Shown one piece after another: positions 30,741 to 33,815 of a DNA stretch of 36,816 bases. A program made the translations under genes and the position numbers. Within the stretch, counting starts at the first letter, position 1. Each line of letters opens with the position of its first letter. The notes under the pieces were generated by a model. That model was not told the DNA's origin and did no database searches. It worked only from the letters and a program-made list of their open reading frames with translations. The stretch spans positions 1 through 36,816 of the forward strand of contig CAMOFI010000009.1 in assembly GCA_946613135.1 (NCBI GenBank), read 5' to 3'. This stretch comes from an uncultured Bacteroidales bacterium (GTDB taxonomy: Bacteria > Bacteroidota > Bacteroidia > Bacteroidales > P3).

Positions 30741-31205
30741 TCACTTTTGCCAAAACCGCGAGGTTATATCGTGCAACCTCCCATCGGCAACTTTGTACAT
30801 CCTCTGGTTGGTGCCACGGCTACGCAAAGCGCCAAGATGTGCGAGATAAGGACCTAATTTAATGTAGTCGAAATTGTTGAGATGCATTTTTGAAGAAAGT
30901 ATAGACCGACCGCTGTACCATGCCGTATGCAATTTCTGGTGATGGCGACGCATATGGCTCATCAAACTGTCCACCTCCTCAGGTATGGCATCGCCTCCCA
31001 TCAAGGCAACACACGTGATATTAGAGTGGCACTGCGATATAAGCTTGTCAAGAGCACTCTCTGTGAGCGGTTCGCCAACGTCGTTCCACAAATACTTCGA
31101 ATGGCATCCTGGACACCTGCAAGGACACCCGGTGAGGTTTATGGCCAACGAGACCTCATCGGGTATCTCTTGAAAGACAATATCGCTGTTCAGATACTTC
31201 AACAT
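30741..31205 (-). CDS. nrdG: anaerobic ribonucleotide reductase-activating protein
   Basis: The track ORF begins at GTG 31232 inside the nrdD stop. The ATG at 31203-31205 (MLKYLNSDIVFQEIPDEVSL) is the natural start and gives 154 residues. It is a short radical-SAM enzyme: the cluster motif CPCRCPGC (CxxxCxxC) follows NLTGC, and GGDA after CVALM is the SAM-binding glycine motif. It generates the glycyl radical in NrdD. It lies 23 nt after nrdD on the same strand, so it is controlled by the same promoter and riboswitch. Length matches the family (about 155). Confidence 0.94.
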   Translation of the reverse strand: MLKYLNSDIVFQEIPDEVSLAINLTGCPCRCPGCHSKYLWNDVGEPLTESALDKLISQCHSNITCVALMGGDAIPEEVDSLMSHMRRHHQKLHTAWYSGRSILSSKMHLNNFDYIKLGPYLAHLGALRSRGTNQRMYKVADGRLHDITSRFWQK

Positions 31206-31228: not shown

Positions 31229-33331
31229 TCACTGTTCAGCATCGACGGTAGCATAGAAGCGGCGCGAGGCCTCCTGTTGACGAGGCATAGAGAAGTTACT
31301 TACACGCTTCAGGTAGCCAATCACACGGGTCATATAGTCAACATTCTTCGAATGGCAGTGGGGACACTCTTTCAGGTAACGCTTATCGATGTGCCCACAG
31401 TCGTTGCAGATTGTGTTGGGAATATTGAATGTGAAATAATTGCACCCCTCTTTGGCTGCCACGTGCAGCAACTGCATATACTGTTCCTGCGACAGATGCT
31501 CCTCGAGGTTGCAATGCAAGGCACTGCCACCGGTAAGGTGCTCTATATAGGGAGCGCCATGCAGACGGAATTTTTCGAGAACAGAAATCGACGGGTCTTC
31601 GACAATGTAGAAATAACTGTTGTAGCAGTCGCGAGGCACAAAATAGCCATCCTCACGGTCCCATTTGGCATGTTTTACGCCCACATTCTCAGCGGGGATC
31701 ATCTCACAGTTGAACATCACCTCTTTGGTGCGGTATTCTTTGTTCTTCTTTTCTACCAGTCCAAGAACCGTCTGAACAAAACTCTTATAATTCGGGTTAT
31801 CATTGATTGTCAAACCCATAAACTCTGCAGCTTCAACCAGTCCATTAACACCTATGGTAAGGTATTGGCGAGCGATATTGATATAACCCGCATCGAACAA
31901 CGGCAACATTCCATGAGCTGCAAGGTCTTTGAGGTTTTCGTTGTAAGCCAGCTGCACCTTGTGGCACAAATCAATGATATCCGTCAGAAAGTCTCGATAG
32001 TCAATCTTGTTGTTGACGGCATATTGAATACAACGGTTGAGGTTGATGGTGAGCACACTTTTCGAACCCGTCGATACGCCACCGGCGCCAAGAGTATAGC
32101 TGAATCCATTGTCTGTAATCTCGTTGCGCAAGCGGCAGCAGCTGCTAAGCGAGTCGGCATTGTCGCTCATGTAGGTAAAAAAGCTGTGTCCTTCGGCATA
32201 CATCTCGGCCGTAAAAGCAGCCATCTCGGGATCGACCATTTCGCCGTCTTTGCTGAGCAATGCCATTGTCTCGACAGGGAACGTCAGCACTGCCTTGGTA
32301 CGTTCAGCATTGAACCAGCGCATAAAACGTTTCTGGAGCCATTTCAGTCCTTCCCAATCGGGAGCAGAGCCGTCGGGGAAACGGAATTCGCCAAAGAGGC
32401 TATCAAAATAAGGTTTGTCATAATAGGCTATGTTCCAAAACACTGCCTGATAATTACGTGCACCCGTCGGCTGATTGAGAGTGTATACGATCTGTTCGAA
32501 GCAGTCGGTAATAACTTTATCGAGAGTGCGACGTTTGAGGCTTAGATCAACAACTTCGTCGGCATGTTTGTAATAGTCCTGTCCATAGTCTTTGCCAATG
32601 AAATAGTTAAGATACATCAAAAACTCGGGTGTGGCACATGCACCACTCAGCATGCTGCTGACCATGAATACCATATTGACAAAGCCGCCGCAGAACGACT
32701 TCAGGTTGGTCGGTGCCGTGGAGTTGCCACCAATAGAAACTGTTCCTCCCAGCAGCCACGGATACATAGTGATGCTGGCACAATAGTTGGCCAACGAAGT
32801 TTCATCGTTCTTATATATGAAATGATGAGTGAGCAGGTCGATATACCTGTCCGCCAATTCCTTGCCATACATCTGTTTGATTCGGTCGGTAAGCAGGCGT
32901 CGGTTGAGGCGGATAAAATTCGATTTTGGAAGTTCGCCTATCAGAGTAGCGATATTCTTGTGTTCCACATTGGCATTGGCATCATATTTGGAACCCGATG
33001 CCGCATTGGCAGCTTCGCAGTAGTCAGCCAGGAATTTCAGCTTCTCCATTGTTTCGCGGTCTTCAGTGTGGCGTTGCCTGTACAGCATAAAACTCTTTGC
33101 CACATCGTAATAGCCCTCCTTCATCAAGGCCACCTCCACCTGGTTCTGGATTTCCTCGACGGTAATGCCGTTATGGATGTCCAGATGTGTTAGGATTTTA
33201 GAGAGGTCGCCCAAGTCGGCCTGAGCACCAACCGAGTCGAAGGCTTTTAGGACAGCGTTCATGATTTTGTCGACCGAAAACCGTTCTGATTTTCCGTCGC
33301 GTTTTGTGATAGATAGCAAACTTGTTTCCAT
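31229..33331 (-). CDS. nrdD: anaerobic ribonucleoside-triphosphate reductase (class III)
   Basis: The 700-residue enzyme reduces ribonucleoside triphosphates without oxygen. Residues about 1-95 form an ATP-cone (SITKRDGKSERFSVDKIMNAV). The active-site region includes SSCCRLRNEITDNGFSYTLGAGGVSTGSK. Near the C terminus are the zinc cysteines Cys642, Cys645, Cys656 and Cys659 (CNDCG, CPHC) and the glycyl-radical site Gly672 in RVIGYLKRVSNFS. The start ATG (33329-33331) follows a leader of about 380 nt with a cobalamin riboswitch on the same strand. The large + strand ORF 31226-32545 is a shadow. Confidence 0.97.
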   Translation of the reverse strand: METSLLSITKRDGKSERFSVDKIMNAVLKAFDSVGAQADLGDLSKILTHLDIHNGITVEEIQNQVEVALMKEGYYDVAKSFMLYRQRHTEDRETMEKLKFLADYCEAANAASGSKYDANANVEHKNIATLIGELPKSNFIRLNRRLLTDRIKQMYGKELADRYIDLLTHHFIYKNDETSLANYCASITMYPWLLGGTVSIGGNSTAPTNLKSFCGGFVNMVFMVSSMLSGACATPEFLMYLNYFIGKDYGQDYYKHADEVVDLSLKRRTLDKVITDCFEQIVYTLNQPTGARNYQAVFWNIAYYDKPYFDSLFGEFRFPDGSAPDWEGLKWLQKRFMRWFNAERTKAVLTFPVETMALLSKDGEMVDPEMAAFTAEMYAEGHSFFTYMSDNADSLSSCCRLRNEITDNGFSYTLGAGGVSTGSKSVLTINLNRCIQYAVNNKIDYRDFLTDIIDLCHKVQLAYNENLKDLAAHGMLPLFDAGYINIARQYLTIGVNGLVEAAEFMGLTINDNPNYKSFVQTVLGLVEKKNKEYRTKEVMFNCEMIPAENVGVKHAKWDREDGYFVPRDCYNSYFYIVEDPSISVLEKFRLHGAPYIEHLTGGSALHCNLEEHLSQEQYMQLLHVAAKEGCNYFTFNIPNTICNDCGHIDKRYLKECPHCHSKNVDYMTRVIGYLKRVSNFSMPRQQEASRRFYATVDAEQ

Positions 33332-33395
33332 TTGTTTTGATGTATTTTTACTTTATTTACGCGAAAGTATAATGACAGACGATAGACATAAGCAA

Positions 33396-33540
33396 AGGCC
33401 GGTCTCCTGGCTTGTTGAATCGAGCGGAGACCTTCTCAGCCTATTGTAGGCCAATGGCATTAACTCCACCGATTTTATTCTTTCAACTTACAGTTGCGCG
33501 TCAGCTCACGACTTCCACGTGATTCCCTCCGACCGTCATG
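33396..33540 (-). ncRNA. cobalamin (B12) riboswitch in the nrdDG leader
   Basis: Read on the - strand, the leader holds the ordered blocks of the cobalamin class. GAGGGAATCACGTGGAAGTCGTGA, then GCTGACGCGCAACTGTAA (the G/CNGCNACUGURA B12-box region), then ATGCCATTGGCC and GAGAAGG, and finally AAGCCAGGAGACCGGCCT, the closing B12-box with the GG-AGACC core. The aptamer ends about 64 nt before the nrdD ATG. Cobalamin binding should lower nrdDG expression. I see no terminator hairpin with a T run after the aptamer, so translational control is more likely than attenuation. The 33332-33395 stretch is the expression platform; 33541-33715 is plain leader with no further gene. Confidence 0.93.
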
Positions 33541-33715
33541 TTTGGCGGAAACGACAGTGATGACCATTCCCAAACCATTCCGTTTTTGTTCCTGTTTTCG
33601 TTACCGTACAAAGAACTGACGTCGGATTTCCTCTGCTCTTATTTTTATTCAAAGTACTCAATGCTAATCCATACAGGACAACAAACCGAATTTTCGTCCA
33701 TAGGATTTCAGTTTG

Positions 33716-33746
33716 CAAATTTACATCAAAAGAAAATACGCCCAAA
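33716..33746 (-). promoter_or_regulatory. promoter of the riboswitch-nrdDG unit
   Basis: On the - strand TTTG (33743-33746) is followed after 19 nt by TAAATTTG (33716-33723), a perfect match to the Bacteroidota TTG-N19-TAnnTTTG arrangement. Transcription would start near 33710, giving a leader of about 375 nt that contains the whole riboswitch. Confidence 0.72.
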
Positions 33747-33815
33747 AAAAAGTTCTCAACGCATCATGTTGATATTCTTGTCGCCAATACCAGTACTACA
33801 CTAAAACACAACGGT

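Follow-up and report, generated by a model that had tools for sequence, protein, structure and literature searches.

The circuit in which a cobalamin riboswitch precedes nrdDG is already known from other bacteria. In the delta-proteobacteria Desulfovibrio vulgaris and Desulfuromonas, B12-elements lie directly before nrdDG, NrdJ is present and a backup logic was proposed (PMC545781, 2004); the earlier note's statement that B12 elements stand before B12-independent reductases in NrdJ-bearing genomes agrees with this report. Our locus shares these features in a different phylum, and whereas B12 synthesis or transport genes were described for the delta-proteobacteria (PMC545781), the family studied here lacks cobI/cbiL. 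Cutibacterium (Propionibacterium) acnes carries cobalamin riboswitches on both nrdDG and nrdAB (PMC3848588, 2013) and resembles our locus in its nrdDG 5' UTR, which is annotated as a cobalamin riboswitch, in the presence of NrdJ and in the cobalamin repression proposed for it. It differs in having a class I reductase, nrdAB, that is itself switched and for which early termination was seen by RNA-seq, and in its NrdR boxes and expressed B12 biosynthetic genes (PMC3848588). A cobalamin riboswitch also lies upstream of nrdD in Chlorobium, in another phylum (Chlorobi) and with its own operon context, and translational control is stated for the Chlorobi (PMC8620254, 2021). Riboswitch-mediated B12 repression of a B12-independent reductase is likewise reported for Streptomyces nrdABS (Borovok 2006, as cited in PMC8620254), although this is a class I enzyme under transcriptional control. 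Closest in phylum are the Bacteroides transport loci, where the same riboswitch family is cobalamin-repressed, about 70-fold for a B. thetaiotaomicron riboswitch, but where the target is B12 uptake and not nucleotide reduction (PMC6143338). A search of mainly open-access literature returned no report of the nrdDG riboswitch arrangement in Bacteroidales, and the new part may be the evolutionary pattern, with several unrelated nrdDs each under a cobalamin riboswitch in one genus.

The window, by which we mean the whole stretch of 36,816 nucleotides that was analysed, is contig C9 of a 1.74-Mb Bacteroidales genome that is 75% complete; its named near relatives are metagenome assemblies from rumen and gut. 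On its minus strand a promoter and a riboswitch aptamer are followed by nrdD, with its ATG at 33331, and then by nrdG. The nrdD gene (31229..33331, minus strand) encodes a class III (anaerobic) ribonucleotide reductase of 700 aa that scores 981.9 bits with TIGR02827, over the curated cut-off, matches PF13597 and features an ATP cone (PF03477), the C-terminal zinc cysteines and an RVIGY glycyl-radical motif. Together with the ATP cone and the glycyl-radical motif, the adjoining nrdG (30741..31205, minus strand), which encodes the radical-SAM activase of NrdD (TIGR02826, 167.7 bits, over the curated cut-off), marks a class III operon. Judging by the starts of relatives, nrdG likely begins at the ATG at 31205; an alternative frame has a GTG start at 31232 and overlaps nrdD. 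The same-strand gene upstream of the riboswitch encodes a chloride channel of the ClC type whose C-terminal part is CBS-like.

The aptamer (33380..33583, minus strand; B12 box AGCCAGGAGACCGGCC) was identified by cmscan as RF00174 (Cobalamin) with 71.9 bits (gathering score 31.5) and an E-value of 5.3e-16. The match spans the full length of the model (1-189) with the core motifs intact, and it is the sole Rfam match in the entire window. Upstream of it, at 33716..33746 on the minus strand, an exact pattern match indicates a Bacteroidetes-type promoter with a -33 box TTTG, a 19-nt spacer and the -7 box TAAATTTG, in line with the Bacteroidetes promoter consensus. The pattern TTTG-N19-TAAATTTG matches twice in the window against 0.61 expected, and similar TTTG...TAnTTTTGC boxes occur at the equivalent site in relatives; a sigma-70 promoter scan of the nrdD leader gave no match. 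The earlier note had placed a complete cobalamin aptamer between a promoter and nrdD, in the interval 33332-33746, and had proposed a covariance search of the minus strand. That search places RF00174 at 33583-33380, and the interval runs from the promoter through to the start codon. The earlier note mentioned neither the hairpin P13, described below, nor its predicted pairing with aptamer loop L5.

The putative expression platform is a hairpin at 33348..33368 (minus strand), UACUUU-CGCGUAAAU-AAAGUA, which we designate P13 and which most riboswitch-bearing relatives share. Its loop, L13, reads CGCGU, and the L5 region of the aptamer (33496..33504, minus strand) contains GACGCGC, the predicted partner, in which ACGCG is complementary to L13. 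In cobalamin switches already studied, repression is driven by a kissing loop between L5 and L13 (PMC10653944), although the L5 of the window is unlike the UCCCG consensus given there. Comparison of the family's leaders indicated that the two loops change together. An L5 with CGCG goes with an L13 with CGCG in 32 nrdD leaders by script, or 34 when G128 and G145 are included by hand, while an L5 with CCCG goes with CGGG in 19 leaders and with CGAGG in 10. In two more CCCG leaders the script gave L13 as CGGT; in one of these, G093, the hairpin actually has CGGG. Among about 65 family leaders there was no crossed combination. The second cobalamin riboswitch of the window's own genome, before a btuB-like gene, is of the CCCG/CGAGG type. 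As the CGCG type is restricted to the window's clade, it possibly arose in one event and was kept in the members. The co-variation largely reflects a few events rather than many independent ones; even so, no other sequence evidence speaks as strongly for a working platform as this change on both sides. In four leaders the P13 stem is missing but a bare CGCG remains close upstream of the AUG, which fits blocking of the ribosome by L5 itself. Folding energies are unremarkable, with z -0.06 against shuffles for the full leader and -3.1 kcal/mol for P13 alone (z 0.48, no signal above shuffles), and pair counts in the P13 stem are not clearly above shuffles (51/500) in a MAFFT alignment whose stem columns slip because the loop length varies. 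Therefore, the case rests on the loops, their position and the covariance match.

In order to rationalise these observations, we propose that an OFF-type cobalamin riboswitch very probably controls nrdDG and that L5 and L13 would act by blocking translation. The host, a Bacteroidales bacterium apparently auxotrophic for B12, encodes NrdJ and, to judge from an assembly at 75% completeness, no class I enzyme. When B12 is plentiful, adenosylcobalamin would bind the aptamer, L5 (ACGCG) would kiss L13 (CGCGU) and P13 would be held just before the nrdD start, so that ribosome loading is blocked and NrdJ supplies the dNTPs. Under B12 shortage P13 would open, nrdD and nrdG would be translated and the glycyl-radical enzyme would take over. 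The form of the ligand, the direction of control and the translational level are what we infer in this proposal. If the proposal is true, the B12 of neighbouring organisms decides which of two enzymes makes all dNTPs in these gut bacteria, and DNA synthesis is tied directly to community vitamin exchange.

As an intrinsic-terminator scan of the nrdD leader found none, translational repression by B12 is the most likely mode. The same riboswitch logic could act on transcription, by ligand-induced or Rho-dependent termination, and effects of Rho or NusG would be invisible in sequence; moreover, many congeners have 70-140 nt between P13 and the start codon, space enough for further structure. In the window, however, the 3' end of P13 is about 17 nt from the AUG, within the usual ribosome footprint, and no U-tract follows it, which together with the missing terminator makes transcriptional control an unlikely, though not negligible, alternative. 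Considerably less probable is that selection on the aptamer has relaxed, leaving a relic, and that nrdDG is not controlled by B12 in this organism. The leader of a near relative, G130, does look decayed and G002, G116 and G142 have no riboswitch, but the full-length match with intact core motifs, the conserved B12 box and the agreement of L5 with L13 in the window and in most relatives, and the retention of all leader parts in the nearest relative, G129, speak against it.

The genome as a whole is consistent with nrdDG as a B12-repressed backup to NrdJ. A 921-aa NrdJ is encoded on contig C133 (TIGR02504, 565 bits, cut-off 400), as the earlier note had predicted, and NrdJ was detected in 133 of the 149 family genomes. 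The small subunit of class I reductase (PF00268) was not found in the window's genome, at its 75% completeness, and in the family it matched in 2 of 149 genomes, one clear match and one weak and broken. The corrin-ring genes cobI/cbiL were over the cut-off in none of the 149 family genomes, the window's included. Missing genes in a 75% complete genome are weak evidence alone, but family-wide absence that includes many near-complete genomes is not. With class I so rare and CobI/CbiL lacking, the family thus appears to make its dNTPs solely through classes II and III and to take its corrinoids from outside. Besides the nrdD element, one further cobalamin riboswitch was detected in the window's genome; it precedes a TonB receptor that matches the B12 receptor BtuB best, though under the cut-off of that family and with a frame that is incomplete at the end of the locus. 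The absence of CobI/CbiL and this riboswitch before a BtuB-like receptor thus support well the dependence on external B12 that the earlier note had suggested, and its proposal of nrdDG as the low-B12 backup to NrdJ gains plausibility from the presence of NrdJ, the near absence of class I and the lack of corrin synthesis. That the switch mainly divides anaerobic from oxic reductase use, with the B12 level as a proxy, is improbable: PMC4520616 does describe class III as oxygen-sensitive and class II as oxygen-indifferent, but the leader carries a cobalamin aptamer as its sensor, no sensor for oxygen was observed, and in a family without corrin synthesis the same switch family precedes a B12-receptor-like gene. 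NrdD had no match in 26 of the 107 nearly complete family genomes, which presumably rely on NrdJ and external B12.

To describe the distribution of the arrangement, we compared the positions of nrdDs with those of riboswitches. In NrdJ-bearing family genomes, where counts are not phylogenetically independent, a riboswitch lies within 500 nt of 58 of 90 standard nrdDs, another 12 have one on the same strand 2.5-3.7 kb upstream with genes between, and 20 have none; nrdDs of genus g1 without a detected riboswitch number 13 in such genomes. The 12 nrdDs in genomes without detected NrdJ have a riboswitch in 0 of 10 cases in genus g4, which is one clade, and in 2 of 2 in g1, with the caveat that the assemblies are incomplete. 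G104 (96% complete) and G134 (82%) have the nrdD riboswitch, and NrdJ was not found in their assemblies; if this absence is real, the sole reductase found would sit under B12 repression, and the absence may be due to assembly gaps. Outside the family, Prevotella-type nrdDs, mostly 82-88% identical to that of the window, had an upstream riboswitch in none of the loci scanned (about 57 with upstream sequence), and most Prevotella genomes tested have NrdJ. In genus g5, too, NrdJ and NrdDG are both present and nrdD has no riboswitch. The idea that NrdJ fully predicts the riboswitch is thus rejected: Prevotella and g5 show that a genome can have both NrdJ and NrdDG without the arrangement.

Several variants of the arrangement were observed within the family. 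In G091 (L123), G035 (L124) and G055 (L125) the cobalamin riboswitch lies 2.5-3.7 kb before nrdDG with a T9SS-exported protein between, and in G055 DUF6580 and DUF2284 genes also intervene; the genes between are candidates for B12-related functions in the same operon as the reductase. Compact aptamers occur at nrdD in G134 (L008/L100), G136 (L018/L145), G052 (L022/L148), G118 (L025/L151) and G109 (L152). In these, much of the accessory P6 is gone and the core-to-B12-box distance is about 13-50 nt as opposed to 80-140; that of L008 scores as AdoCbl-II (RF01689), and intermediate lengths look as if full-length aptamers had been shortened more than once. What looks like the residue of a cobalamin aptamer, decayed or deleted, precedes nrdD in G130 (L006/L099) and G087 (L139). 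The family is thereby a natural series, with the switch intact, compact, decayed or absent, NrdJ present or absent and several unrelated nrdDs, that is useful for asking how riboswitch control arises and vanishes around an essential enzyme.

We then turned to the phylogeny of the controlled enzyme. The NrdD tree scatters genus g1, with two clades, that of the window and that of G091, nested inside Prevotella and other g1 NrdDs placed near genera g4, g5 and g10. Monophyly of the g1 NrdDs, a group defined as the genus as such and not picked from the tree, was rejected by the AU test (p 6e-12). By comparison, the RecA tree sets the whole family apart from Prevotella with full support and groups g1 on a single side of a weakly supported branch. 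Because their branches are long, the NrdD placement of G138, G143, G115 and G148 is less sure than that of the two Prevotella-nested clades. At least five nrdDs that are phylogenetically separate, together with an NrdD of an unrelated type, thus occur in genus g1, many of them behind a cobalamin riboswitch. The unrelated NrdD/NrdG stands directly behind the riboswitch in G092, G124, G088 and G113 (L126-L129) and belongs to PRK07111/TIGR02491 by a family search on L126 (G092). Repeated replacement of nrdDG with repeated acquisition of B12 control would be the simplest reading, and we favour it with some reserve: the class III reductase of g1 was probably replaced laterally several times and many of the incoming nrdDGs captured by the riboswitch, so that the circuit would have persisted as the enzyme changed. 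The window's and G091 clades would derive from Prevotella-like donors, others from donors near g4, g5 and g10, with the PRK07111-type NrdD as a further capture. That the donors once had the switch and then lost it is less economical but keeps some probability, given the limited donor sampling and an unrooted tree.

A further conserved element adjoins the upstream side of the -33 box. The inverted repeat ATATCAACA-N6-GTTGAGAA (33751..33775, minus strand; pattern match at 33753-33772), of the general form TTWTCAACA-N-GTTGAKAA, is kept at the nrdD promoters of congeners, including those without a riboswitch, and is absent upstream of 57 Prevotella nrdDs. It resembles DnaA boxes and is a possible operator, and leaders L012 and L013 contain exact DnaA-box half-sites, TTATNCACA. 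A role as a shared operator of ribonucleotide reductases was considered and rejected, the repeat not being found upstream of nrdJ in 20 g1 genomes. With genes named by eye, the same repeat does occur before nrdJ in two g11 genomes (L085, L086), and also upstream of a DnaN-like gene (L254) and of ribosomal-protein genes (L269), a distribution suggestive of a DnaA-like operator.
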